DNA of 64,000 nucleotides, taken from positions 62,001 to 126,000 of the forward strand of contig JAJCYD010000007.1 of NCBI GenBank assembly GCA_029263125.1. The letters run 5' to 3'. The position numbers and the translations under genes were made by a program. A model generated the notes under the pieces. That model made no database searches, was not told where the DNA came from, and worked only from the letters and a program-made list of their open reading frames with translations. The stretch comes from Solirubrobacteraceae bacterium. GTDB lineage: Bacteria > Actinomycetota > Thermoleophilia > Solirubrobacterales > Solirubrobacteraceae. Positions 30,933 to 43,201 of this stretch are shown here, piece by piece (position 1 is the first letter of the stretch; every line of letters begins with the position of its first letter).

Positions 30933-31366
30933 CGCCGCGCACGATATCCGCTCGGCCGCTGTGATCGCGCTCGCCCTGCGACAGGCCAGACGCAGAGGCG
31001 TGAGACTCCACCAAGGGGGCAGTCTCAGGCGATCGCCGTCGCTGCGATCACCGGGTTGGGCGCCTTCTGCATGTCTGCCGTTCAGAACGCGGCCAGCCAG
31101 ATCCGCATCGCATCGAGCTGGGCGTTTTCTGCATGTCTGTCATGCCAAACCCGCCCAGCCGCTCGGCCAGGTGTGACGGCGCCGTCCTCGCGCAAGGGCG
31201 CGCTGTCGTCGGCGCGCGCGGAGGCTGCTCCTGTCGCGCGGGGCGGCGCTCTTGTCGGCAAGCCGTGAGGCTGCCGTGGCCGGGGAGGAACGCTTCGAGA
31301 ATGCGAGGTTGACTTGGGGTCCTTCTCGGTGGCACGATCGCCCATAGGCGAGTCCAAGGAGGAACC
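30933..31366. other. Gene-free stretch with an imperfect 21-bp direct repeat and a stem-loop
   Basis: This 434-base stretch lies between two divergent small genes. TGGGCG, two variable bases, then TTCTGCATGTCTG occurs at 31057-31077 (variable bases CC) and 31119-31139 (TT). The second copy starts inside a perfect 8-bp inverted repeat GCTGGGCG / CGCCCAGC at 31117-31124 and 31152-31159. I find no gene or known RNA. The promoter of the DUF1059 gene should lie near 31300-31350. Confidence 0.5.
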
Positions 31367-31591
31367 ATGGAGAGGTTGATGGCGGACTGCCGTCGCTTTG
31401 AGAGCGACAGCAACTGCCAGCTGACGATCATCGGGCCGCAGGCCGATGTGGTCGCCGCCGCAGCCCAGCACGCAGCCGCATCGCACGGGCACGAAGACAC
31501 GCCGGAGTTGCGCGAGCAGATACGTAGCATGCTCGAGCCCGAGAGCGCATACGTCGCCGGTGAGCGTGTGCCGGAGCCGTTTCCGACCTGA
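31367..31591 (+). CDS. DUF1059 family small protein
   Basis: This 74-residue protein with the DUF1059 pattern: an N-terminal MADCRRFESDSNCQL, in which two cysteines flank a short strand, a helix AQHAAASHGHEDTPEL, then REQIRSM. An AAGGAGGAACC precedes the ATG at 31367. The function of the family is unknown. It is the last chromosomal gene before the left direct repeat of the island. Confidence 0.75.
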   Translation: MERLMADCRRFESDSNCQLTIIGPQADVVAAAAQHAAASHGHEDTPELREQIRSMLEPESAYVAGERVPEPFPT

Positions 31592-31698
31592 ACCTTCAAC
31601 CGCGCGCGGCCGTGCGAGGTCACGGCCGCGCCGCGCGTCCGCCGGCATCCGATCTGCAGCCCGACCCCGAGACACCGGTTGACGCCGTTCGCCAACCA

Positions 31699-31721
31699 GA
31701 TGTTGGCGGAAATGTTGGCGG
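31699..31721 (+). repeat. Left 23-bp direct repeat of the island (candidate attL)
   Basis: G followed by two copies of ATGTTGGCGG separated by AA. The same 23 bases recur without mismatch at 43034-43056. CGCCAAC at 31690-31696 forms an inverted repeat with the first GTTGGCG, a feature absent at the right copy. An imperfect copy of the ATCCGATCT sequence that lies outside the right repeat also lies outside this one, at about 31647. Confidence 0.7.
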
Positions 31722-31786
31722 GTTTCGCGCGAGCGGCGCCACCGGATGACGAACCAGGCGAGGCGCACGCAAGCGGCCGACCTCGC

Positions 31787-32608
31787 TTAGGCGATAGCGG
31801 AAAGCACCTCGCGAGCGAGCGCAGCGCAGCGGATCGCGACGATCTCCGGCTCCTCGACCAGCGGAGCGACGGCCTCGGCCGCCTGCTGGGCTCCGGGCCC
31901 TCCGGGCGCACCGAACAGCGTCTCGAGATGCCCGATCGCATCGCGAGCGACAGCGGCGCTGATCTCGTCGCCGAGCATCAGCTCGAACCCCGCGACGAAG
32001 ACCTCGGGTTCGATCTCGCGCAGCAAGCGATACACGTCGTGGCTGTCGCGTGGCCGCTGGCGGGCCGGCTGTGCCAAGCGCTCGAAGATCTTGTACTGCT
32101 TGGCGACAAGCAGTGCTGCGGGACCGGCCACCTTGAGCCTGTGCGCCCGCATGTCGTCGCTCGTCAATGCGGCGATGCGCATCTCCGAGTGGTCCACGAG
32201 CGCGCCCTCGATGCCGAGCACCCGGCGGGCGGACATCTTGTCGTGCGGCGGGATGCGTCCCGCCCGGCCCTTGCCCGAACGTCCCGAGACGGCCTCGGGC
32301 AGCAGCAGGTCGACCGGATACCCAGCCCGACTGATCCACGAGCCGGGCTGCGGATTTGTGAGATCGAGGTGAAAGCCAGCGGATGTCATCGCGGTCTCGA
32401 GCAGCGGGGTCGCGTCCAGCGCTGCAGGGTCGAGCGCGAGGTCGGCGTCCTTCGTCTCGGTCGCGATCGCCTCATCGACGTCGCCGGTGTGCAGGAAGAT
32501 CGCTTGAGCGCCGACGAGGACGAGCGCGTCGTGTTGAGATGTAAGGGCATCGAGCGCATCCAGCAACGCCCGACGGGTCGCCGCATACAGCGGCGAGACG
32601 TCAGCCAT
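31787..32608 (-). CDS. AbiEii-like nucleotidyltransferase (type IV TA toxin-like)
   Basis: This 273-residue protein with a nucleotidyltransferase fold: ALVLVGAQAIFLHTG, then TKDADLALDP, in which D-A-D supplies the metal-binding aspartates. The C-terminal half is helical with KVAGPAALLVAKQYKIFERL, a lysine-bearing segment resembling that of AbiEii toxins. AbiEii proteins modify tRNA or nucleotides and cause abortive phage infection. The first eight bases overlap the end of the upstream gene, which has the look of the AbiEi partner. Substrate and toxicity are inference. Confidence 0.68.
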   Translation of the reverse strand: MADVSPLYAATRRALLDALDALTSQHDALVLVGAQAIFLHTGDVDEAIATETKDADLALDPAALDATPLLETAMTSAGFHLDLTNPQPGSWISRAGYPVDLLLPEAVSGRSGKGRAGRIPPHDKMSARRVLGIEGALVDHSEMRIAALTSDDMRAHRLKVAGPAALLVAKQYKIFERLAQPARQRPRDSHDVYRLLREIEPEVFVAGFELMLGDEISAAVARDAIGHLETLFGAPGGPGAQQAAEAVAPLVEEPEIVAIRCAALAREVLSAIA

Positions 32609-33713
32609 TGGCCTTGCCCGCGGCGATGGTGCGCAGAAGCTCCTCGCCCTCGGCCGGCCCGCGACCGGGGGCCGTGAGCAGGTCGGCTGCGACCTGACCG
32701 AGCGCTGCGTAGGTGATGCCGTCGCGTTCCCACGTGTTGTCGAACACGATCGGATTGAACGGCTCGGCGAGGACTACGTTGCCTGCGCTCTCCACCGTCA
32801 CGAGCCCGAGCTCGGATGCGGCCCTGTCGATGTCATCGACATAGGCCATCGCGAGCTTCGTGTCGGCGAACTCGGCGACCAGACGGGCGGCGAGCGAGCC
32901 CGTGACCGCGTAGCGAAACGGCGCGTCTTGCAATCGGGCGAGCAGCCGCTCGATGCCGCGAGGCTCCAGAAACAGGCTCGTCGTGTTGGACTCCGCAAAC
33001 GAGTAGTCCTCGGTCCAGCGCTCGATCAGTCGCGTGCGGTCGACGTCGACAACCGTGCCGCCATCACCCCGCTCGACGACGGCTTCGCGCTCGAGCAGTT
33101 CGAACACGCGGCTGATGGTCCCCAACGACGTCCCGCTGCGCTCGGCGAGCTCGCGAACCTTGACCGGCGGCTCGGCGTCGAACAGCGCTCGCACGACCCG
33201 TGCCGCGGCAACACCCGTCAGTGACCGCAGCCCGCGACGCTCCGGCGCCGGGTCGCGATCGGCACCGGAGTCCGAGACGTACAAGCCGGGCCGCGCCAGC
33301 GCGATGCGAATGTTGCCGGTGGTGTCCGCATAGTTGACGCCACGCCGTGCAAGCTCGTCGCGAACGCGACGCGAGAGAAACCGTCCGGCAACGATCGGCG
33401 GCCCGCGCTCAGGCCCGTCAGCAGGCAGATCCACGGTCAACATCCGCGCCTGATCGAGCACGCCCTGCAGGTCGCGGCCGTCGACGCGCATCTTGGCCTC
33501 CACGGCTACGACACCCCTGGTCCCGTCCGGCGCCGTGACGGTGAGCACGGCGTCGGCGATGCTTCGGCCGACGCGCTCTCCCGCGGCCATGCTCATATCC
33601 CAGCCTTCTGGCAGCCGCTCGCGGAAGGCAGCGTCCAGCGCGCGCAGGATGTCGCTTTCGCGGCGGATTCGGGTGGGGGGTGGCGGTTGCATCGGAGTTG
33701 CGTTCCGTGTCAT
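32601..33713 (-). CDS. AbiEi-like wHTH antitoxin/regulator
   Basis: This protein is about 370 residues. The N-terminal third has a restriction-endonuclease-like look (GVVAVEAKMRVDGRD), and a winged HTH lies near the middle (VKVRELAERSGTSLGTISRVFELLERE). The C-terminal domain contains VTGSLAARLVA and a segment near PFNPIVFDNTW. This is the arrangement of AbiEi_2-type antitoxins that pair with AbiEii nucleotidyltransferases, and the AbiEii-like gene overlaps its end by 8 bp. The start is uncertain (Met at 33713 or 33692). Repeated GCGGAAC sites over and upstream of the start suggest autoregulation. Confidence 0.62.
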   Translation of the reverse strand: MTRNATPMQPPPPTRIRRESDILRALDAAFRERLPEGWDMSMAAGERVGRSIADAVLTVTAPDGTRGVVAVEAKMRVDGRDLQGVLDQARMLTVDLPADGPERGPPIVAGRFLSRRVRDELARRGVNYADTTGNIRIALARPGLYVSDSGADRDPAPERRGLRSLTGVAAARVVRALFDAEPPVKVRELAERSGTSLGTISRVFELLEREAVVERGDGGTVVDVDRTRLIERWTEDYSFAESNTTSLFLEPRGIERLLARLQDAPFRYAVTGSLAARLVAEFADTKLAMAYVDDIDRAASELGLVTVESAGNVVLAEPFNPIVFDNTWERDGITYAALGQVAADLLTAPGRGPAEGEELLRTIAAGKANG

Positions 33714-33818
33714 GCGGAACAGGTCGCGAGAGCGGAACCTGTCCTTGCAAGTCACGTGAGTATAGGTATTCCTGGCCGCTGTTCCAATTCATGCCAGTGT
33801 TCCGCGTACTGCGGAACA
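33702..33818 (-). promoter_or_regulatory. Cluster of GTTCCGC / GCGGAAC repeats at the AbiE-like promoter
   Basis: TGTTCCGC at 33798-33805 and GCGGAACA at 33811-33818 form a perfect inverted repeat with a 5-bp spacer. GTTCCG at 33702-33707 and CGGAAC at 33715-33720 form a second one with a 7-bp spacer, over the start codon. A lone GCGGAAC lies at 33732-33738. AbiEi antitoxins of other systems bind inverted repeats in their own promoter, so these are likely operators. Confidence 0.55.
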
Positions 33819-33837
33819 TCGCTGACCCCGGGAACTC

Positions 33838-34300
33838 GTGGTACGCGCGGACGATGTGCGCATGTACTGCGCAGCAAGGGGCGCGTCAGCGAGCTCCGCT
33901 CGCCTCCGGCGGGATCCGGTAGCCGTCATAGATCGCACCGAAGATCAGCTCCCCCGCTCGAACGCGGAAGTCTTCGTCGTCGAGGAGCGCCTTCAGCAGC
34001 GTCGCCTGGCGCTCGCGATCGCCGCCAACGGCGAGTGCCGCCGATCAGCAGGTTGTCACGTTCGCGCACGAAGTCATCGCGAAGATTTGCTTCGGCCTCG
34101 TCGACGAGGGCGATCACGACGCCGCGCGCGTCGAGCAGCTCTCCGAGCGCATGCACGCAAGCCGCGCGCAGGTGCCTTCGATCGACTACGACCTCAACCC
34201 TGAATCGACGCCGATCGCCCCCGAGGACTTCGCCCGTCCACAGTCGTGCGACCTGCAACCGGAACCGACGCCATCCGACGCAGCCGGGCTCGATCGATGA
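33838..34300 (+). pseudogene. Probable frameshifted small gene before 34297
   Basis: From about 34022 a plus-strand frame with high third-position GC (QQVVTFAHEVIAKICFGL and onward) runs to TGA 34298-34300, and the next gene's ATG overlaps that stop. No ATG, GTG or TTG opens this frame upstream until 34151. A different plus frame from 33838 (EVFVVEERLQQRRLALAI) looks coding up to about 34040, so a single frameshift would join them. An alternative reading is on the minus strand, where 33886-34044 encodes an equally natural tail (LLKALLDDEDFRVRAGEL) with its own stop. I cannot decide which is original. Confidence 0.35.
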
Positions 34301-34776
34301 GCAACGGCCGCCCACCACGACGCGTCGCGCTCACGCTCGCCGTCGATGAGCGAGCGGCGCTGCGGGCCATCGCCGTGCGCAGGGGCGAACCTGAAGCGAC
34401 GACCGCTGCGCGCTTCGTGCGCGCCGGCCTGGCTGGCGACGGCGCCGAGCTCGACGAGCCGCCGCAGCGCCGCCGCGGACCGAAGTCCCCGCCACGCCGT
34501 GAGCCGAGGGCCGGCGACGGATGCCCGTGGCTTCCGGCCAGTGAGCACAACACCGCGGTCGCCCGGCTGCGCGACCGCTACCCGAGTGACCTGCGCCACG
34601 TCCCCAACCACCTGGGCGAGGACCGCGCACTCGCCGAGCGGATCGCCGCCTTGAGCGTCTGGCGCGCCGAGATCGACGCCGGCCTGCACCGTGACCCGCG
34701 CGTCGAGCTCGCGTTCAGCGACGAGCTCGCGCGCACCTCGCGCTGGCTCGAGGAGCGTCGAAGGCGGACCCGGTGA
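34297..34776 (+). CDS. Hypothetical island protein with RHH-like N-terminus
   Basis: This 159-residue basic protein. The first 45 residues (RRVALTLAVDERAALRAIAVRRG, then a helix) resemble a ribbon-helix-helix DNA-binding element. A basic Pro/Arg-rich linker follows, and a C-terminal helical region contains LGEDRALAERIAALSVWRAEID. Proteins like this often accompany mobilisation or integration modules. The ATG overlaps the stop of the preceding damaged frame. Function unknown. Confidence 0.5.
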   Translation: MSNGRPPRRVALTLAVDERAALRAIAVRRGEPEATTAARFVRAGLAGDGAELDEPPQRRRGPKSPPRREPRAGDGCPWLPASEHNTAVARLRDRYPSDLRHVPNHLGEDRALAERIAALSVWRAEIDAGLHRDPRVELAFSDELARTSRWLEERRRRTR

Positions 34777-34886
34777 CCGCGTCACAGCGCGCAACAGTCG
34801 CACACCGTGCATCTAGTCTGTCCTGGCCGTTTGTCCGTGCGCGCCTGCCGGCGACGGACGGGCGCGCAACTGCGACGCAGTGCGGG

Positions 34887-35075
34887 TCAGTCGCCCTCGG
34901 TGTCGGTTGCAAGGTGCACGAAGCGCGGGTCGCAGACCAGTGCGAGGCACAGCGCGGTGATGTCGCGACGGTCGTGGTCGTCGCGGGGCAGCGCCTCGAT
35001 CTGCGGGGCGAGATACCAGCGTCGGGCGCCGACGATCGCCACCGGCTCCCCACGCCGAATCAGCATATGGCCCAT
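34887..35075 (-). CDS. Hypothetical small island protein (62 aa)
   Basis: A 62-codon frame with normal composition: MGHMLIRRGEPVAIVGARRW, then YLAPQIEALPRDDHDRRDIT and ALCLALVCDP near the end. It lies 51 bp upstream of the sigma-like gene on the other side of the stop-start gap, in the same direction. No recognisable family. A shadow frame cannot be excluded. Confidence 0.42.
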   Translation of the reverse strand: MGHMLIRRGEPVAIVGARRWYLAPQIEALPRDDHDRRDITALCLALVCDPRFVHLATDTEGD

Positions 35076-35126
35076 GCCGCCGTAGGCGCCGAGGGGGCGA
35101 GATTCGCCCCCTCGGATGCGCCGCGC

Positions 35127-35672
35127 TCAGTCGCGCCTGCGGTTCGCGAGCTGCAGCCGTGCCTTGTAGATCACCCCACGCGCCCGCGCAGTCGTGATGT
35201 CGTTGCGGGCCGCGATCTCCGTTGCGTTGAAGCCGGCGACTTGGAGCAGCAGCATCTCGCGCCGGCGCGGGTGCAGCCATTCGAGCGCCGCGAGCGTGTC
35301 GAGCAGCTCGTCGCGATCAATGCCGTTGCGGCGCGCGGTGTAGCGGCGCGCGTTGGTCAGCGCCGCGAGGTCGTCACCGTGCGCGTGTCGCGCGCACCGG
35401 GCGTGCAGTCGCCATGCCTCGCGCGTGGCGACCGTCACGAGCCAGGCGAAGACGGACTCACGCCGTGGCCGGTGGCACAGCAGCTGCAGCCATGCGAACG
35501 AGCACGCGTCCTCGATGTTCGCCTCGCTGGTGCGGACCGCGGCGCCGACGACGCGACGCAGCTTGTCAGCGTGGGCGGCGTAGAGGCGCTCCTCGTCGCC
35601 GAGCAGTTCGAGCTTGGCCGGCGCCGCGCTGCCCCGGCGGCTGGTGGGCGGTTCGTGGCGGTTGCTGGACAT
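35127..35672 (-). CDS. ECF-like RNA polymerase sigma factor
   Basis: This 181-residue protein has a sigma region 2-like helix set (LYAAHADKLRRVVGAAVR, then IEDACSFAWLQLL and VFAWLVTVATREAWRLH). Region 4 has an HTH (LHPRRREMLLLQVAGFNATEIAARNDI, then TTARARGVIYKARLQL). The start Met at 35672 gives a normal ECF length; the longer open frame upstream crosses the hairpin-rich region and is excluded. No anti-sigma gene adjoins it. It is divergent from the integrase with 231 bp between, so it may control excision or island genes. Confidence 0.7.
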   Translation of the reverse strand: MSSNRHEPPTSRRGSAAPAKLELLGDEERLYAAHADKLRRVVGAAVRTSEANIEDACSFAWLQLLCHRPRRESVFAWLVTVATREAWRLHARCARHAHGDDLAALTNARRYTARRNGIDRDELLDTLAALEWLHPRRREMLLLQVAGFNATEIAARNDITTARARGVIYKARLQLANRRRD

Positions 35673-35706
35673 GGCCGCCCATGAGCACGCACGCGTGGCG
35701 GGTGAC

Positions 35707-35775
35707 AAGGTGCGCCCGTCAGGGGCCGGTGCATGCCGGCGCGAAGCGCGCACCTTGCGCCCGCCTACGCGGGCG
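35707..35775. repeat. Nested inverted repeats between sigma-like gene and integrase
   Basis: AAGGTGCGC at 35707-35715 is the reverse complement of GCGCACCTT at 35748-35756. Inside it GCCGG and CCGGC flank TGCATG. Next to it CGCCCGC at 35758-35764 pairs exactly with GCGGGCG at 35769-35775 around the loop CTAC. Three adjacent hairpins between divergent genes suggest a regulatory or recombination/replication site. No known consensus fits. Confidence 0.55.
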
Positions 35776-35903
35776 TGCTGGGCTGCGCCATGCTCCGGCG
35801 ACCAGCCACGAACCGCCGACGGCGGGCCGGGGGCGAATCTGACCGGCTTGCCGCCTATTGCTGACATGCGCCCACTACCTCCCTCTGACCGCCGGACCAC
35901 CCG

Positions 35904-37007
35904 ATGAGCGTCCAACGCCGAGCCCGCGCCGGCCGGCGCACCGTCTGGCAGGTCACGTGGCGCGACCCCGATGGGCGCCAGCGTGCCGAGAGCTACCCGA
36001 CCCGCCGCCTCGCCGAGGCCCGCGACAGCGAGCTACGCGACCTACGCTGGCAGGGCAAGCTCGACGAGGCCGACGCCGGCGCCGAGCCGCTCTACGACGC
36101 GGCCGACGCCTGGTGGACCGACCACGTCGAACCGAACCTCGCGCGCTCGACGATCCTCAGCTACGTCCACGTGCTCGACCACCATCTGCTGCCGCGCCTC
36201 GGCGAGACGCCGATCCGCGACATCAGCCCGGCGCATGTCGTCGCGCTGCAGCGCGAACTGCGCGACGCCGGTGTCGGCACCGCGATGAGCCACCGCATCC
36301 TGATGGTCTTGAGCGGGATCATGCGCCACGCCGTGCTGCGCGGGCGACTGGACCGCAACCCAGTCCAGCCGGTGCGCGTGCCGCTGCCCAAGCGCGTCCG
36401 CGCGATCCGGCCGCTCCCGCCCGCGAGCGTCGAGCGCATGCGGCGCGCCCTGCTCGATTCCGACGACCTCGAAAGCGCGACGCTCGTGAGCCTGATGGCG
36501 TACGCCGGGCTGCGGCCGGGCGAGGCGACCGCGCTCGCGTGGGAGCACGTCGGCGCGCGCACGCTGCTCGTCGAGCAGGCGAGCAGCGGTGATGGTGGGA
36601 CGGCGAAGGGGACGAAGACCGGCGCGATCCGCACCGTGCGGCTGCTGGCGCCGCTCGTCGACGACCTCGCGGCCTGGCGATCAAGCAGCGCCCGAGACGG
36701 CGGCCCTCTGTTTCCGCGCCGCGACGGCACCGCCTGGACGATGACCGACTACCGCAACTGGCGCCGGCGCCGCTTTGACCCGGCCGCGGAGACCGCCGAA
36801 CTCGACGGCGTGCGGCCGTACGACCTGCGCCACTCGTTCGCGAGCCTGATGATCCAGGCCGGCTACTCGTCGGTGGAGCTCGCCGCCGAGCTCGGGCACG
36901 CGCCGACGCTCACGTTGAACACGTACGCGCACGTCTTCAGCGAGTTCGCACGGGGTGAGCGCGTCGATCCTGAGCAGCTCATTGAGCAGATACGGGCGTC
37001 GTCGTAG
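35904..37007 (+). CDS. int: Tyrosine recombinase / integrase
   Basis: This 367-residue phage-type integrase. The N-terminus is an AP2-like arm-binding region (RTVWQVTWRDPDGRQR), followed by a SAM-like core-binding domain (about 65-150). The catalytic domain has Arg in AYAGLRPGEATAL, the H-x-x-R box in YDLRHSFASL, His in LGHAP and the nucleophilic Tyr in NTYAHVF. All key residues are present, so it looks active. It is the only integrase in the island and should act on the 23-bp repeats, although it lies 4.2 kb from one and 6 kb from the other. Confidence 0.92.
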   Translation: MSVQRRARAGRRTVWQVTWRDPDGRQRAESYPTRRLAEARDSELRDLRWQGKLDEADAGAEPLYDAADAWWTDHVEPNLARSTILSYVHVLDHHLLPRLGETPIRDISPAHVVALQRELRDAGVGTAMSHRILMVLSGIMRHAVLRGRLDRNPVQPVRVPLPKRVRAIRPLPPASVERMRRALLDSDDLESATLVSLMAYAGLRPGEATALAWEHVGARTLLVEQASSGDGGTAKGTKTGAIRTVRLLAPLVDDLAAWRSSSARDGGPLFPRRDGTAWTMTDYRNWRRRRFDPAAETAELDGVRPYDLRHSFASLMIQAGYSSVELAAELGHAPTLTLNTYAHVFSEFARGERVDPEQLIEQIRASS

Positions 37008-37162
37008 CCGGGTCATACCGAGTGCAGCGCCAGCGAGACACGAAGAGAGCGTGTTCCCGAGTGACGGCGGAGCACTGCAAACGTCGAGACGGCGCTCTGC
37101 GCCGAGCGCGTGAACTGTCCATAAGCGCCGCATGCGGCGGCGGGTGATCGTTGGACGTTGTT

Positions 37163-38851
37163 TCAACCAATCGGCAACTGCGTCTTCGATACGAGCGAGG
37201 CCACGTGGCTCCGGCCCTGGAGGTAGGCGACGGCTATACCCACGCTCTGGCTCCGTGCGGTGAGTGCCCGCTGAGTCGTCTTGTCCAGGCCGTGAATCCA
37301 GTGCAGACCAACCGCGTAACCGCGAAGCACCTCGGGATTGTGCTCCCTTGAGACATCCGACTTGATCCAGTCGCGGTCGGCGGGTCGCCCTCCTCTCAAC
37401 ATCACGACCGCGGCGATGGCTCGAAGGAACTCGGGCTCGTTGCGATCCTTGACACGACGTGACGCCTCATCGGCCCAGCGTGCCGGGAGCGTGCCAGGAT
37501 GCTCGAGCATCGCTGCGAACAGCCAAGTCGAGAGGTACGAGGACTGGCATCGAGCAGGATCACCGAGGAAGCCTGCCAGGCTCTCAACGACGCGCGGCCG
37601 GGTGATGAATGGCCGCAGATAGGCCGCCACGATCCTCGAGACGGGCGCGAGATCTTCCAAGCGCCTGAGAACGAGCGTCAGCGTGCTGCTCTCGCGGAGC
37701 TTTGTGAGTCGCCAGAGACTGAACTTCGCATGGCGCTCATTAATGCCAGCTTCGGCCTTCAGCGCGTTCCGCAGAATCGTCTTGAGCGCCTTCCTGGCGG
37801 CCGTAAAGCTCTTCGCGTTCGTCAAGTACGCGACACGATCAAGATCGGCGTCGTCATCGAGATCCGCTCGGGCCGCTTTTGCGTGCAACAACTGGGTCTT
37901 GGCTGCACTCACCAGTAGACCGCGCGCCCGCGTCTCCTGCTGAAACTTGCGAATTGCCTTGTATCCGTCCTCCTTTGTATCGACGACGATGCGGATGTCG
38001 TCCATGTAGCGCGAGTAGCGCCAGCCTGCATGCAGCATCGCTCGGTCCACGGGAGCTAGGTACAGGTTTCCGAGCACCCGCGACGCATTTGGACCCTGAG
38101 GGAGGCCTATGCCTTGGTCAGCTCCCCAGGACTTGAGGACGTCGCGCATCACGTTCAAGGTGTTGGCATCGATGTTGAGCGCCTCTATGTCCGCGAGTAG
38201 TCCGCGGTGCGGCACAGTGTCGAAATAAGCCGTAAGGTCGGTCTTGACTAGCCAAGGGTCGCTCGTTTCCGCAAGTTGCGCACGCACGAAGCGACGCCAG
38301 GCTACCCACTGCCTCGCAGGGTGCTTCGTGAAGAAGCGCGGTGCCTCGGACAGCCGCGACGAGAAGATGCTCTCGGCCATGAGTGCGTCAACACGGTCCG
38401 CGAATGAGGCCACGGCCGCCTGGAACGCGACGCGATCGTGCAACGACAAGAGCGTCCCCAGTCGCGTAAGCATTAGTGACTTATCAATCTCGACGACCCT
38501 GCTTGATCCTGGACCCGCCCGGTCGAACACCGCCGCCGCGCGTGCGAGCAGCCCGGCGGTGTCGGTGAGAACGTCCTCGTGCTGGAGGACGTCTGGAACC
38601 CAAAGATCCTGTTTGAGATCCGTAGCCCGCACATGCTCGAGGGCACGGTCAAGATCAACGGTCATACGCCGCGACTGCCGGCGTGAGCGCGGATGGGCGT
38701 TGGGCAGCGCCTGCGCGTCAATCAGCCATTGTCTGCCGCTCTTTCGAGCGGCGATCCGCCCCTCCTTCGCCATACGGCGGGCGGTCGCGGGCGAAACGCG
38801 GAGTCGAACCGCCGCCTCCTCGACCGTCAGGTATTCATCCGTAGCGCTCAT
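37163..38851 (-). CDS. Reverse transcriptase with N-terminal excisionase-type HTH
   Basis: This 562-residue protein. Residues 6-50 form a MerR/excisionase-like HTH (LTVEEAAVRLRVSPATARRMAKEGRI, then RQWLI). The RT domain has motif A as VKTDLTAYFDTVPHRGLL, motif B as LPQGPNASRVLGNLYLAP and the catalytic box Y283-M-D-D286. A helical C-terminal region of about 270 residues follows, with no maturase or HNH nuclease, so it is neither a typical group II intron RT nor a retron RT. It best fits the diverse unknown-group/defence RTs. A GTG 11 codons upstream (38884) is an alternative start. It lies 210 bp downstream of the ubiquitin-like operon on the same strand. Confidence 0.85.
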   Translation of the reverse strand: MSATDEYLTVEEAAVRLRVSPATARRMAKEGRIAARKSGRQWLIDAQALPNAHPRSRRQSRRMTVDLDRALEHVRATDLKQDLWVPDVLQHEDVLTDTAGLLARAAAVFDRAGPGSSRVVEIDKSLMLTRLGTLLSLHDRVAFQAAVASFADRVDALMAESIFSSRLSEAPRFFTKHPARQWVAWRRFVRAQLAETSDPWLVKTDLTAYFDTVPHRGLLADIEALNIDANTLNVMRDVLKSWGADQGIGLPQGPNASRVLGNLYLAPVDRAMLHAGWRYSRYMDDIRIVVDTKEDGYKAIRKFQQETRARGLLVSAAKTQLLHAKAARADLDDDADLDRVAYLTNAKSFTAARKALKTILRNALKAEAGINERHAKFSLWRLTKLRESSTLTLVLRRLEDLAPVSRIVAAYLRPFITRPRVVESLAGFLGDPARCQSSYLSTWLFAAMLEHPGTLPARWADEASRRVKDRNEPEFLRAIAAVVMLRGGRPADRDWIKSDVSREHNPEVLRGYAVGLHWIHGLDKTTQRALTARSQSVGIAVAYLQGRSHVASLVSKTQLPIG

Positions 38852-38877
38852 AGTTGCGCAAAAGCGCTCATTGAGCG
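38843..38877 (-). promoter_or_regulatory. AGCGCTCAT repeats over the RT start
   Basis: AGCGCTCAT occurs at 38843-38851 and 38863-38871, exactly 20 bp (about two helical turns) apart, and the inverted TGAGCG follows at 38872-38877. The repeats cover the RT start codon. They are plausible binding sites for the HTH domain fused to the RT, giving autoregulation. Confidence 0.5.
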
Positions 38878-38912
38878 TACTCACCGCGGACTACCCGGAC
38901 CTGTATCGGCGA

Positions 38913-38930
38913 CCGAGCCGCGAGGCTCGG
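38913..38930. other. GCGA-capped hairpin between DUF6527 and RT genes
   Basis: CCGAGCC (38913-38919) and GGCTCGG (38924-38930) enclose the loop GCGA (TCGC on the minus transcript). It lies in the 210-bp gap of the minus-strand gene set and could end the ubiquitin-like operon or be part of a structured RNA used by the RT. There is no T-tract. Confidence 0.4.
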
Positions 38931-39094
38931 AGCACTCCGCCAGATGTCCGTCGGCCAGACGCAAGCGCCGCCCTTCGCGCGCACAGGAGCAGTGAGGGCA
39001 ACCGTGTTCTCGCCGGGCCCAGACATCGACGCGCTGTTCCGCGCGCGACAAGCGACCGCGGGTCCGAGTTATCAGTCGGCCATGCCGTCGACGC

Positions 39095-39559
39095 TCACCG
39101 TCGTGACAGCCACAAGCGCAACCGGCGCCGCCAACCGGCGGCGGTCTCGTCGGGCCGATGAAACCCCTGCGCGTCGGACTCGTCGAGAACCGGCTTCCGC
39201 GAGCCGTCTTCATAGAACCGCCGCTTGAGTTCGAGGTCGACGGCGCGATTGGCGTGGATCTTGTCCTTCGACCAGGCGCCTGCCCAGTGCACGCGACTGT
39301 GCTCGATCCAGTAGTGCGACCGGCACGGAAAACTCCAGTTGCCGACCGAGCGGCTGAGACTCACCGTCTCGCCGTCGTAGGCCAGGTGCCAGTCGGTCGG
39401 CGTGAGCGGCGTGATGACGCGCTGTCCGCAGCCGCACAGGCAGCTGTGGACGACCGTCGCGTAGTGCATCGAGATGTAGAGCGTGTTCGGCTCAAGCTGC
39501 TCGGGGACGAACTCAACGAATCGGTGTTCGATGAGCTGCGCGCGCAGCGGCCCCCTCAT
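39095..39559 (-). CDS. DUF6527 family protein of a ubiquitin-like operon
   Basis: This 154-residue protein with the DUF6527 features: an N-terminal strand region (RFVEFVPEQLEPNTLYIS), a cysteine cluster C40-L-C42-G-C44-G in HSCLCGCG, then the SRSVGNWSFPCRSHYWI block with C79 and H82. The paired Cys/His groups suggest a metal site. Genes of this family sit in bacterial ubiquitin-like operons, where a processing or deconjugating role has been proposed. Its ATG overlaps the E1-like stop (ATGA), so it belongs to the same operon. The last 25 residues are Arg/Trp-rich. Confidence 0.78.
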   Translation of the reverse strand: MRGPLRAQLIEHRFVEFVPEQLEPNTLYISMHYATVVHSCLCGCGQRVITPLTPTDWHLAYDGETVSLSRSVGNWSFPCRSHYWIEHSRVHWAGAWSKDKIHANRAVDLELKRRFYEDGSRKPVLDESDAQGFHRPDETAAGWRRRLRLWLSRR

Positions 39560-40857
39560 GCTGCCGCCCGGTTCCTCTCGTCGCCGCCCTCGCCCGCCAC
39601 GACCCTCGAGGCGCTGGTGTCCTCGACCGCGGTCCGGGCGTCGGGCGCGACCGCCTCTCGCGGGTCGGGGGTGCCGCCGTCGCGGGCCGTGTCCTCGTTG
39701 TGGATGTAGTTACCGTCGATCTCGTAGACGCTGTGATGCTCGCCGTCGAGGTCGACGTAGAAGCCGCAGAGCTTCTTCCACTTGATGGTCGCCAGCGCCG
39801 CGTTGAGCATGTTGAGGTCGGCGATCTGGACGTTGTTGCGGTAATCGTTGGCAGGATCGTCGGCGGCGGCGAACGGGATTCGGTCGTACTTCCAGACGTG
39901 ATCGCGCTTGTGCGGCGTGCTGGTCGTGACGCGCACCTGCCCGCCAAGTGCATCGTCGGCCGAGTAGATCCCCATGCCGACGTCCGTGAACCGCATCCCG
40001 GCCGCCTCGAGCGAATCGACGATCAGGCGCCGCGCCGCGCCGTCATCGACCGCGATGAAAACGAAGTCCATCTCCCCGAGCTCATCGACGTTGGAGCCAT
40101 CGACGTAGACCGCGTGGGCCACGATCTGTCGGCGCATCGGCGAGTAGCTGTCCTTGTAGTAGTCGACCTTGTTGACCTTCGCGCTCAGATCGGACACCGA
40201 CGCCGCCCCGGGCGATCGGAACGCGTTGTGCTGGAGCAACACGTCGCCGTCGTACAAGTGAATCTCGGCGACCGGCGTCTTAGCGACGAGGTCGAGGATG
40301 TAGGCGCCGGTGCCGCCGAGGCCGACGATCGCGACCTTATGGCCCCGCAGTCGTGCGGTGGCGACGCTGACGCCGGCGCGGCTCGACGCGCTCTCGACGT
40401 ACTCGAAGACGGAATCATCGTCGCTCGAGACGACACCATGCGTAATGGCGGTCGCGGCTGACTCGATCGCCTGTGCTGGCCCGGAGAGGATGCTGACGTA
40501 CGTCGTCATCTTCTCGTAGTAGTCGCCATAGCCGGCGGCTGGCTTGTGGGAGAACAGGTGCTGCGAGACCAGCCCTTCCAGGAGGTTCTGCCCGCCGCTG
40601 GCGATGATGTCGATCGGCTTCCCGGTCTCGTCGTGAGGCGCGCCGCCCGTGAAGTGCACGGTGTGGTCCTGCGGCCGCTCGGCAACGTCGCCGGCAAGCG
40701 TGAGACTGGAGGCAAGGGTCCCGCGGAGGACCCGGGCCTGCTCGTCGACGTAGGGGACGGAGTGCAGGAGCAGGTAGCCGTTTCGGATCGCGATCTCGTA
40801 GCCGTCGTCGACGAGGCGCTTGAGGTCGGGACTACGATTTATCGGTCGCCGTGACAT
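39556..40857 (-). CDS. E1-like ThiF protein with N-terminal DUF6791 domain
   Basis: This 433-residue adenylating enzyme. Residues 1-165 match the DUF6791 type (LVDDGYEIAIRNGYLLLHSVPY, and DHTVHFTGG). The E1/ThiF Rossmann domain follows: nucleotide loop GLGGTGAY (179-186), YDGDVLLQHNAFRSPG with the D and R that act on ATP, and a FIAVDDGAARR segment. The only cysteine is Cys364 (KKLCGFY), a candidate thioester site. It should adenylate the C-terminus of the upstream modifier. Its start lies inside the end of the modifier gene (26-bp overlap), and its stop overlaps the DUF6527 start. Confidence 0.82.
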   Translation of the reverse strand: MSRRPINRSPDLKRLVDDGYEIAIRNGYLLLHSVPYVDEQARVLRGTLASSLTLAGDVAERPQDHTVHFTGGAPHDETGKPIDIIASGGQNLLEGLVSQHLFSHKPAAGYGDYYEKMTTYVSILSGPAQAIESAATAITHGVVSSDDDSVFEYVESASSRAGVSVATARLRGHKVAIVGLGGTGAYILDLVAKTPVAEIHLYDGDVLLQHNAFRSPGAASVSDLSAKVNKVDYYKDSYSPMRRQIVAHAVYVDGSNVDELGEMDFVFIAVDDGAARRLIVDSLEAAGMRFTDVGMGIYSADDALGGQVRVTTSTPHKRDHVWKYDRIPFAAADDPANDYRNNVQIADLNMLNAALATIKWKKLCGFYVDLDGEHHSVYEIDGNYIHNEDTARDGGTPDPREAVAPDARTAVEDTSASRVVAGEGGDERNRAAA

Positions 40858-41128
40858 TGAAGACCATCCCTTTCTTCACCTTCACGGTGGCGCCCTTCAC
40901 CAGCGAGCCCTGCGGGGACTCGTCGGCGCCCCGGCGGTAGGTGACGGTGACCATCCAGTTCTCGCCCTCCGGCGGGTTGCCGTCGTAGGCGAGGTCGACC
41001 ACCTGTTCGAAGGTGATCTCCTTCGTGGTGATGGTCTTCTCCTGCGCGTTAACGACGATCGTCGTTTCGTGCTCGTGATCCGGGGACTGACCCGGCTTGT
41101 CCTTGTACTTGGTTCCTTCGGGCTGCAT
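40832..41128 (-). CDS. Ubiquitin-like modifier (multiubiquitin-type beta-grasp)
   Basis: This 98-residue protein. After a charged leader of about 20 residues, one beta-grasp unit is readable: TTIVVNAQEKTITTKEITFEQVVDLAY, a PPEGENWMVTVTYRRG hairpin, then GSLVKGATVKVKKGMVFNVT. This matches the multiubiquitin domain of bacterial ubiquitin-like operons, here as a single unit. The C-terminus is TATDKS, without the Gly-Gly of ubiquitin. A GGAGGA lies seven bases before the ATG. It is the first gene of the operon, with the E1-like gene overlapping its end. Confidence 0.82.
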   Translation of the reverse strand: MQPEGTKYKDKPGQSPDHEHETTIVVNAQEKTITTKEITFEQVVDLAYDGNPPEGENWMVTVTYRRGADESPQGSLVKGATVKVKKGMVFNVTATDKS

Positions 41129-41137
41129 CTCTCGATC

Positions 41138-41210
41138 CTCCGATCAGTCGGGGCGTCCTTCTCCTGCCAGAGTAGTACAAGAGTATATACCAAGTTGGTG
41201 TAGGATTCCA
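41138..41210 (-). promoter_or_regulatory. Divergent control region with palindrome ACCAAGTTGGT
   Basis: On the minus strand TATACT (41182-41187) is a good -10 box for the ubiquitin-like operon, and GGAGGA precedes its start. An 11-bp perfect palindrome ACCAAGTTGGT at 41189-41199 lies immediately upstream of that box and also in front of higB on the other strand. It may be a HigA operator that influences both directions. Confidence 0.5.
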
Positions 41211-41270
41211 TAGTGTCCGTCCGAACGCATAACCTAATCGGTACAGGCGTGCTTCTCGCGCCTCTTCGCG

Positions 41271-41603
41271 ATGAACGTCTCCTTCAGCACCACCAAGCTC
41301 CGGAAGCTCTGCACCTTCGATCGCGATCTCCAGCGCCAGCTGGGGCCCGGCGGCGCGAAGAAGGCGAAGAGCCATCTGGCGTCGATCGCGGCCGCCGAGA
41401 CGCTCGCCGACTTCCGACATCTGCCCGGGCACTGTCACGAGCTGGGGGCAGACCGTGCTGGCCAGCTAGCGCTGAACCTGCCGGATGGCAAGCGGTTGGT
41501 ATTCGAGCCGGCCGACGACCCGCCTCCTACTAAGCCGGATGGCGGCCTGGACTGGGCGGCTGTCCGTTCCGTCCGGATCCTTGAGATAGGCGACTACCAC
41601 TGA
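41271..41603 (+). CDS. higB: HigB-type RelE superfamily toxin
   Basis: This 110-residue protein of the HigB ('system killer') group of RelE-fold mRNA interferases: SFSTTKLRKLCTFDRDLQRQLGPGGAKKAK at the start, ADFRHLPGHCHELGADRAGQLAL in the middle, and SVRILEIGDYH at the end, as is usual. Such toxins cut mRNA on the ribosome. The stop overlaps a following ATG (TGATG), and the HigA-type antitoxin is encoded immediately downstream, toxin first, the order typical of higBA. Confidence 0.82.
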   Translation: MNVSFSTTKLRKLCTFDRDLQRQLGPGGAKKAKSHLASIAAAETLADFRHLPGHCHELGADRAGQLALNLPDGKRLVFEPADDPPPTKPDGGLDWAAVRSVRILEIGDYH

Positions 41604-41626
41604 TGACACCCGTACGGAGGGATGAG

Positions 41627-42709
41627 ATGACCCAAAACGCAACGACGTTTCGGCCAGATTGGGCCAGCCCGCCGGGCGACACGCTTGCCGACCTGTTGGA
41701 CGAGCGACGCATGACGCAGACGGAGCTGGCCGAGCGCCTCGGCGTAACCCTCAAGCACGTCAACCGAGTGATCAAGGGGGCAGCGACCATCTCGCCGGAC
41801 CTTGCTTTGGGACTCGAGAAGGTCTTTGGCGCTTCGGCAGCCTTTTGGATGACGCGCGAAGCGCACTACCAGGCCGCCCGGGCTCGGCACGAGCAGCGAC
41901 AGAGCTTTGCGAAGGCGGTCGGGTGGGCAAAACAGTTCCCCATCAAAGAGCTTCGGAAGCGAGGGATCTTGCCGCGGGGAAGCGACGGCCCGGAACTCGT
42001 TGAGCAAGTACTCGGCTTCCTCGGAATCGCGCACCCGGACCAATGGACGGAGCCGCAGGTCGCCTATCGAAAGTCCCAGAAGTTCGATAGCGACCAGTTC
42101 GCGCTCGCGACTTGGTTGCGCGAAGGTGAATTGCAGGCCACCGACGTCGACTGCGCGCCTTACGACGAGGCGCGCTTCCGCGAAGTGCTCCAGCAGGCAC
42201 GATCACTTACGCGGCTCGCGCCTGAGGCATGGTGGCCTGAGCTCCAAGCCCGCTGTGCTTCAGCAGGAGTTGCCGTTGTTCTCGTCGATGTATACGCCGG
42301 CGCCAAAGCAAACGGCGCGACTCGCTGGCTTGCGCCAGACAAGGCTTTGATCCAGCTCAGCCTGCGGTACGCCTGGGAGGACATCTTCTGGTTCAGCTTC
42401 TTCCACGAGGCTGGGCACGTGGTCCTACACAGGAAGAAAGACGTCTTCGTCGAGGTGGCGGGGAGGGACAAGTCGGCCCACCCACGTGAGCAGCAACTCG
42501 AAGCTGGGGCAGATCGGTTCGCCGCAAAGACCCTTATCCCACCTCCACATGACAGACGCCTACTTGGCCTGAAGCTACGGGACGTGGACGCCTTCGCTCA
42601 AGTGCTGGACATCGCCCCAGCGATCGTCGTCGGCCGGATGCACCATGAGGGGATTCTCCCCTGGAACCAGGGCAACGCATACCGCAGGCGTCTCAAGTTC
42701 GTCGACTGA
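41627..42709 (+). CDS. higA: HigA antitoxin fused to ImmA/IrrE metallopeptidase domain
   Basis: This 360-residue protein. Residues 15-70 form a HigA-type HTH (LADLLDERRMTQTELAERL, then VTLKHVNRVIKGAATISPDL, and FGASAAFWM). The C-terminal half is an ImmA/IrrE-like zinc peptidase with H260-E-A-G-H264. The ATG at 41627 follows GGAGGG and is preferred to the ATG at 41603 that overlaps the higB stop. HTH-ImmA fusions act as protease-controlled repressors in mobile elements. Here it probably neutralises HigB and represses the locus; how the protease is triggered is unknown. Confidence 0.85.
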   Translation: MTQNATTFRPDWASPPGDTLADLLDERRMTQTELAERLGVTLKHVNRVIKGAATISPDLALGLEKVFGASAAFWMTREAHYQAARARHEQRQSFAKAVGWAKQFPIKELRKRGILPRGSDGPELVEQVLGFLGIAHPDQWTEPQVAYRKSQKFDSDQFALATWLREGELQATDVDCAPYDEARFREVLQQARSLTRLAPEAWWPELQARCASAGVAVVLVDVYAGAKANGATRWLAPDKALIQLSLRYAWEDIFWFSFFHEAGHVVLHRKKDVFVEVAGRDKSAHPREQQLEAGADRFAAKTLIPPPHDRRLLGLKLRDVDAFAQVLDIAPAIVVGRMHHEGILPWNQGNAYRRRLKFVD

Positions 42710-43033
42710 GCGCGCGGTCCGCCGGAAGCCAAAGTGCGACTTGAGGCCGTTGTCGCCGCGCTATCGCTCTCGCGTGAAAACGGTCATTTTCGGCCGACCG
42801 ACCGATGGATCCACACCTGCCTCGAGCGACAATCGGCCTTCCATCGCGAGCCCTCCCCGTCCGTAACGCGACGAGCAAAGCAAGTCCGCTGTGCCCAGCG
42901 CGCTCAGCGAAGGGGGCGGTGGCAGTGCAGGTTCGCTGCGCAGGATGCGCACGGCGGCGAGCGCCTTGGGGCCGGGGATTAGCTGCTGCGCCCGGGAGGT
43001 ACCCATGCGCCCAGGCTGTCTCGTTCCCGCACC
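42710..43033. other. Gene-free right end of the island
   Basis: About 320 bases after higA hold no frame with protein-like composition on either strand and no RNA I recognise. The stretch ends in the right 23-bp repeat. Confidence 0.5.
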
Positions 43034-43056
43034 GATGTTGGCGGAAATGTTGGCGG
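43034..43056 (+). repeat. Right 23-bp direct repeat of the island (candidate attR)
   Basis: Identical over 23 bases to 31699-31721: G, then ATGTTGGCGG twice with AA between. Outside it, between the repeat and the tRNA-Thr gene, lies ATCCGATCTCCAACCCC, which resembles a sequence outside the left repeat. Confidence 0.7.
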
Positions 43057-43097
43057 ATGGCCGTATCCGATCTCCAACCCCAGACCCCGGTGGAAAC

Positions 43098-43123
43098 GAA
43101 AGCCCCGCAAATGCGGTGCTTTC
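43098..43123 (-). terminator. Hairpin downstream of tRNA-Thr
   Basis: On the minus strand, five bases after the tRNA, GAAAGC pairs with GCTTTC and inner CCGC with GCGG around ATTT, followed by a short T-rich stretch (CGTTTCC). This is a probable intrinsic terminator of the tRNA transcript. Confidence 0.6.
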
Positions 43124-43128
43124 GCCAG

Positions 43129-43201
43129 AGCCGACGAGCGGATTCGAACCGCTGACCCCTTCATTACGAGTGAAGTGCTCTACCAGCTGAGCTACGTCGG
43201 C
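43129..43201 (-). tRNA. tRNA-Thr (anticodon CGT)
   Basis: The minus strand folds into a full cloverleaf: acceptor GCCGACG with CGTCGGC, D arm GCTC-AGCTGGTA-GAGC, anticodon stem CTTCA / TGAAG with loop CTCGTAA, five-base variable region and T arm AGCGG-TTCGAAT-CCGCT. The anticodon CGT reads ACG (Thr). CCA is not encoded. The 3' end faces the island. Confidence 0.95.

Follow-up and report, generated by a model that had tools for sequence, protein, structure and literature searches.

A UG32 reverse transcriptase with a fused helix-turn-helix domain and a candidate operator at the start of its own gene

Class 1 reverse transcriptases (RTs) of the Abi/DRT type possess an alpha-helical-repeat (alphaRep) domain and synthesize DNA without a template (PMC13174585). 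DRT4 is a single-gene system that produces random ssDNA (PMC13213688). The literature that we searched has hardly explored how single-gene, toxic DRTs are silenced until infection. UG32 is a named RT group for which that literature holds no described function, and no experiments on any UG32 protein were found in it. An association between an RT and a helix-turn-helix (HTH) domain of the HTH_17 family has already been seen, though undiscussed: Table 3 of myRT lists HTH_17 with AQT81505.1, a UG23-like RT (UG23/UG9/UG19-like). As in the protein described here, an HTH_17 domain accompanies the RT, but it is given there as neighbourhood information, and neither a fusion nor an operator is discussed (PMC8934634).

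The gene studied here occupies positions 37163–38884 (minus strand) of the 64-kb stretch of DNA that was analyzed (the window). The open reading frame is uninterrupted, has zero internal stops and encodes 573 residues from a GTG at 38884. Since the homologues begin 3–7 residues ahead of the HTH, the annotated GTG is probably 11 codons too long and the start is probably ATG 38851 (562 residues). The N-terminal domain (residues 17–60; 38705–38836, minus strand) is a winged HTH of the HTH_17 or excisionase/MerR type, identified by Pfam HTH_17 (residues 18–60, E 5e-12), by the excisionase-family model TIGR01764 of NCBIfam, both above cut-off, and by the predicted structure. The RT domain (residues ∼75–350; 37835–38662, minus strand) is defined by RVT_1 (residues 197–334, E 1e-18, above cut-off), by structural matches, and by its catalytic residues, D216, D295 and D296, the last two within the YMDD motif (Y293-M-D-D296). 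The remainder (residues ∼355–564; 37193–37822, minus strand) was delimited from the model and from structural matches. The AlphaFold2 model, built with 13 sequences (mean pLDDT 82.7, pTM 0.76), places a winged HTH (pLDDT ∼77–88), a low-confidence linker (63–73), the RT domain, and paired helices (360–556) in that order. A preliminary description of this DNA, made from the sequence alone, had reported an HTH joined to a YMDD-type RT, with a helical C-terminus in place of maturase domains, and both features are borne out. Y422 is near-invariant in an alignment of 13 UG RTs. The priming residue of AbiK is Y44 (as given in the name of entry 7z0z) and, because AbiK primes elsewhere, no priming residue is claimed for the window RT. 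Motif 4 varies among the UG32 proteins L034, L041 and L042 (GLPIGCDAS, GLPTGPEAS and GLVQGPDAA, respectively, versus GLPQGPNAS).

Profile searches place the protein in UG32, an already catalogued group. The PADLOC RT_UG32 profile matches residues 44–568 with 584.7 bits, a full-length match with the same domain order, and the runner-up, UG23, scores 213.7. The scores with the group II model (group_II_RT_mat, 79 bits versus a cut-off of 300) and the retron St85 model (NF038233, 29 bits versus 235) are below threshold, and a Pfam domain search revealed no Avd-like gene, a feature of DGRs, among the neighbors. The earlier proposal of a layout foreign to retrons, DGRs and group II introns notwithstanding, the layout is a known one, that of RT_UG32 with a class-1-type C-terminus. 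In a tree of 34 RTs (IQ-TREE, retrons left out), the window RT forms one clade with L042, L034 and L041 (100/100), L042 being its closest relative. A separate clade (100/100) holds 13 of the 15 RTs labeled as group II, and the window RT lies outside it, in agreement with the UG/DRT type suggested previously; the other two (L018 and L019), probably mislabeled, branch on the UG side. UG23 and UG21 are the next-best PADLOC profiles, with related RT and C-terminal regions. The UG23/UG21 members that we found (L003, L004 and L035–L037) lack the HTH, unlike the window RT. In one UG23 RT (L037, 1420–3447, minus strand), a domain that resembles TIR, judged from sequence only, occupies the position of the HTH.

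Whole-genome searches yielded three further full-length UG32 proteins, L034 (genome G872), L041 (G1247) and L042 (G1250). A fourth relative, L010 (G609), is more distant and frameshifted. The tree puts this partial protein outside the UG32 clade, yet what is left of it, half a protein, scores best with UG32. The four are 29–40% identical to the window protein, the UG32 members about 35–40%, and have the same HTH-linker-RT order. The fusion is therefore neither specific to one element nor the product of a sequencing error joining two genes near residues 55–70, a concern raised initially and now excluded. The HTH is fused to the RT in all five HTH-RTs, including every full-length UG32 member found, and by sequence comparison the fusion is a trait of the UG32 group. 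UG32 is rare: even the richest of the orders sampled yielded it in at most 3 of about 300 genomes. When viral and genome contigs were scanned with single sequences, no relatives came up. Alignment-based scans returned two distant RTs from genome contigs, L040 (UG9) and L039, which group together in the tree, and two weak, distant RTs from viral contigs. The plasmid and phage records searched also contained distant RTs only. The window protein adds a member to this group, which is known but lacks a functional description, and the interest of the protein lies in the conserved HTH and the candidate operator described below.

The predicted fold of the C-terminus is that of an alpha-helical-repeat domain, as in class 1 Abi/DRT RTs. 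The best Foldseek match among solved structures, covering most of the chain, is the DRT6 hexamer (9wy8, E 4.5e-12, TM 0.58/0.65), followed by DRT4, UG15, Abi-P2, AbiA and AbiK. In structural alignments with VIA-align, 398–453 residues of the model align with DRT6, DRT4, UG15, Abi-P2 and AbiK (Z 15–19), and 378 with AbiA. These alignments extend into the C-terminal helices, to about residue 565, whereas those with group II, DGR, DRT2, DRT9 and retron chains mostly end near residues 350–420. The window RT shares with these class 1 enzymes a single-gene organization and an RT followed by an alpha-helical repeat; the matched class 1 structures lack an N-terminal HTH and have only 9–14% sequence identity to it. 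We assign the window RT to a class-1-like Abi/DRT type on the basis of the predicted fold, and class 1 chemistry would follow from that fold and from the published relatives (PMC13174585, PMC13213688).

This assignment bears on whether the enzyme might instead copy a dedicated, neighboring ncRNA, as in retrons, DRT2 or DRT9. The intergenic gaps upstream (210 bp, 38885–39094, minus strand, between the RT and a DUF6527 gene) and downstream (155 bp) could hold an RNA, and DRT9 is among the structural matches. However, the alignments with DRT2 and DRT9 cover just the RT core and stop at about residue 350, well short of the limit reached with the alphaRep enzymes. An Rfam search gave only the tRNA, with no RNA match in the upstream gap, and the flanks of the UG32 loci are unalignable, sharing no similarity beyond the short motif discussed next. 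We consider a template RNA improbable, the case against the RNA itself consisting of just the Rfam result and the unalignable flanks.

A cluster of three TGAGCG/CGCTCA copies (38845–38850, 38865–38870 and 38872–38877; minus strand) overlaps the probable start codon of the RT. Three copies of the same motif also lie within 90 bp of the RT start in two distant UG32 loci, L043 (encoding L034) and L047 (encoding L041), where TGTGAGCGAAACCGCTCACA and TGAGCGCTCA form palindromes. The shared three-copy cluster at the RT start is what the present analysis adds. No denser cluster of this kind exists in the window or in either 19.6-kb locus, and none of 5000 first-order Markov controls had any 6-mer at three copies in all three 90-bp starts. 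A strict pair, TGAGCGCTN4-16TGAGCG (TGAGCGCT), is found at the RT gene and nowhere else in the 3.75-Mb genome. Loose pairs (0–14 bp gap) recur about 14–31 times per genome in the three motif-bearing genomes, a background level that makes pairs alone weak evidence; specificity comes from the three-copy clusters and their recurrence at the same gene. The motif was spotted by inspection of the data and is carried by three of only five loci. It is missing at the RT starts of L048, even though this locus encodes L042, the nearest relative of the window RT in the tree, and of L029, the latter having palindromic elements of its own (CTCGAACA/TGTTCGAG). No sigma-70-like promoter was recognized in the window. 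The segment 38845–38877 also contains a 7-codon upstream ORF (ATG AGC GCT TTT GCG CAA CTA TGA), with an ATGA overlap at the probable RT start.

The distribution of the motif parallels differences in the putative recognition helix. Motif-bearing proteins have an xAT-xxR pattern (SPATARR in the window protein, SVATVKR in L034 and SEATVKR in L041), unlike those without the motif (TANELRLR in L042 and NQMTVRRW in L010). The HTH of the window protein is closer to that of L034 than to that of L042 (50% versus 39% identity), while the order is reversed for the RT (39% versus 44%), as if the HTH and its operator evolve together. The simplest reading of these sequence features is that the protein controls its own gene, with the fused HTH recognizing the TGAGCG repeats, a reading supported by the recurrence of the three-copy motif at the RT start in distant UG32 loci. 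The suggestion in the preliminary description that the HTH binds its own promoter thereby gains support, if by inference. Alternatively, the HTH of a UG32 defence enzyme might tether the polymerase to the DNA of phage or host, or sense a structure in phage DNA, with no autorepression. HTH_17 is a general DNA-binding fold that is retained in all five HTH-RTs, and two of their five loci lack the motif, as this alternative would allow. It is nonetheless unlikely in our view, since an autoregulator would be expected to leave just such a trace as the three motif copies at the RT starts of three distant loci, and the opposed identities of HTH and RT are easier to reconcile with a coevolving operator.

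Our preferred reading, to which we give a probability of about 60%, is that the window gene encodes an autorepressed, single-gene, class-1-like UG32 defence RT making untemplated DNA, carried as defence cargo by a small tyrosine-integrase element at a tRNA-Thr gene. By binding the TGAGCG repeats, the HTH would repress the RT gene, and uninfected cells would contain little of the toxic polymerase. Upon infection, loss of repression, a phage factor, or both, would raise RT activity. The RT, presumably oligomeric, would then synthesize untemplated and probably protein-primed DNA, by analogy with AbiK and DRT4, and no template ncRNA would be expected. Phage growth may be halted by abortive infection, through the DNA product or, in loci that have one, a 2TM-NUDIX partner. 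The extension to UG32 as a whole, as defence polymerases that are also their own repressors through a TGAGCG operator, with DNA occupancy and toxic synthesis coupled in one protein, is more tentative, and we put it somewhat below even odds. We found no such self-repressor layout described for any DRT in the literature searched. With a DNA-binding head built into the DRT and a candidate operator in plain view, the question of silencing becomes directly testable, and the UG32 group gains an anatomy.

The proposed anti-phage role is based on defence-island context. The UG32 RT of L047 adjoins DISARM- and Druantia-like helicase genes, the HTH-RT of L029 adjoins a Schlafen-type helicase, and the UG32 RT of L048 adjoins transposases and a T5orf172 gene. 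In two of these loci, L047 (8112–8933) and L048 (10584–11366), a 2TM Sa_NUDIX gene is convergent with the RT; the two encoded proteins are 38% identical to each other. This family corresponds to RTasNUDIX, the RT-associated DRT component of PADLOC, and also serves as a 2TM effector family in CBASS. UG32 and the NUDIX protein are possibly a two-gene system in L047 and L048. A search for the partner in the window element and in L043 found none, indicating that it is not obligatory. Besides lacking a Sa_NUDIX neighbor, the window RT differs from the UG32 members found in lying in an integrase element with a ubiquitin-like operon.

This element is a window-specific insertion of ∼12.2 kb (30933–43127) beside a tRNA-Thr(CGT) gene (43128–43201, minus strand), the insertion site. 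Five congeners lack the 12.2-kb insert: in them, the gene ending near 30.92 kb in the window directly adjoins tRNA-Thr (at 12 bp in L063). The GC content is 67% in the insertion versus 73% outside. The 23-bp sequence GATGTTGGCGGAAATGTTGGCGG, in turn a near-duplication of ATGTTGGCGG, forms a perfect direct repeat at 31699–31721 and 43034–43056 (both plus strand). These are its only two copies in the genome, with up to 3 mismatches allowed, and they bound 11.3 kb (31699–43056). The repeat lies outside the tRNA, about 70 bp from it, and 0.77 kb of extra strain-specific DNA extends beyond the left copy. No copy of the tRNA 3′ end was found at the left side of the insertion. The repeats were considered as targets of the HTH and ruled out, as no TGAGCG occurs inside them. 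The cargo of the insertion comprises a tyrosine integrase gene, a gene pair with one weakly AbiEi-like member, a Multi_ubiq/E1-DUF6791/DUF6527 operon, and a HigA-M78 gene.

The integrase gene (35904–37007, plus strand; Phage_integrase E 2e-14) is convergent with the RT gene. Its proximity, together with the above-threshold TIGR01764 score of the HTH, raises the question of whether the HTH-RT and the integrase cooperate, the former serving the element as a recombination or excisionase-like factor. Such coupling to excision, envisaged in the preliminary description, is unsupported and barely plausible: the HTH is retained in UG32 loci whose examined neighbors included no integrase, the strict TGAGCG pair lies at the RT gene and not at either end of the element or in the 23-bp repeats, and an excision role leaves the RT and helical-repeat domains unexplained.

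Upstream of the RT, an operon-like array (39095–41128) encodes Multi_ubiq (98 residues), a ThiF/E1 protein with DUF6791 (433 residues), and DUF6527 (154 residues), a bacterial ubiquitin-like conjugation set on the same element as the RT. These genes could form one system with the RT, being on the same strand of the same element and only 210 bp away, but no multiubiquitin gene was among the genes identified beside other UG32 loci, and the start of the RT gene is operator-like in its own right. We regard a joint system as very improbable.

Other cargo genes of the element are also defence-like. In the interval 41271–42709, a 368-residue protein combines a HigA-family antitoxin with an M78 (ImmA/IrrE-like) peptidase domain. 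It is also scored by PADLOC as PD-Lambda-2_B (92.6 bits), and is preceded by a 110-residue ORF, in the position of HigB, that has no Pfam match. Near the left end of the insertion, two overlapping genes (31787–33755), the 384-residue product of one being weakly AbiEi-like and below the Pfam cut-off, possibly constitute an AbiE-type toxin-antitoxin pair.
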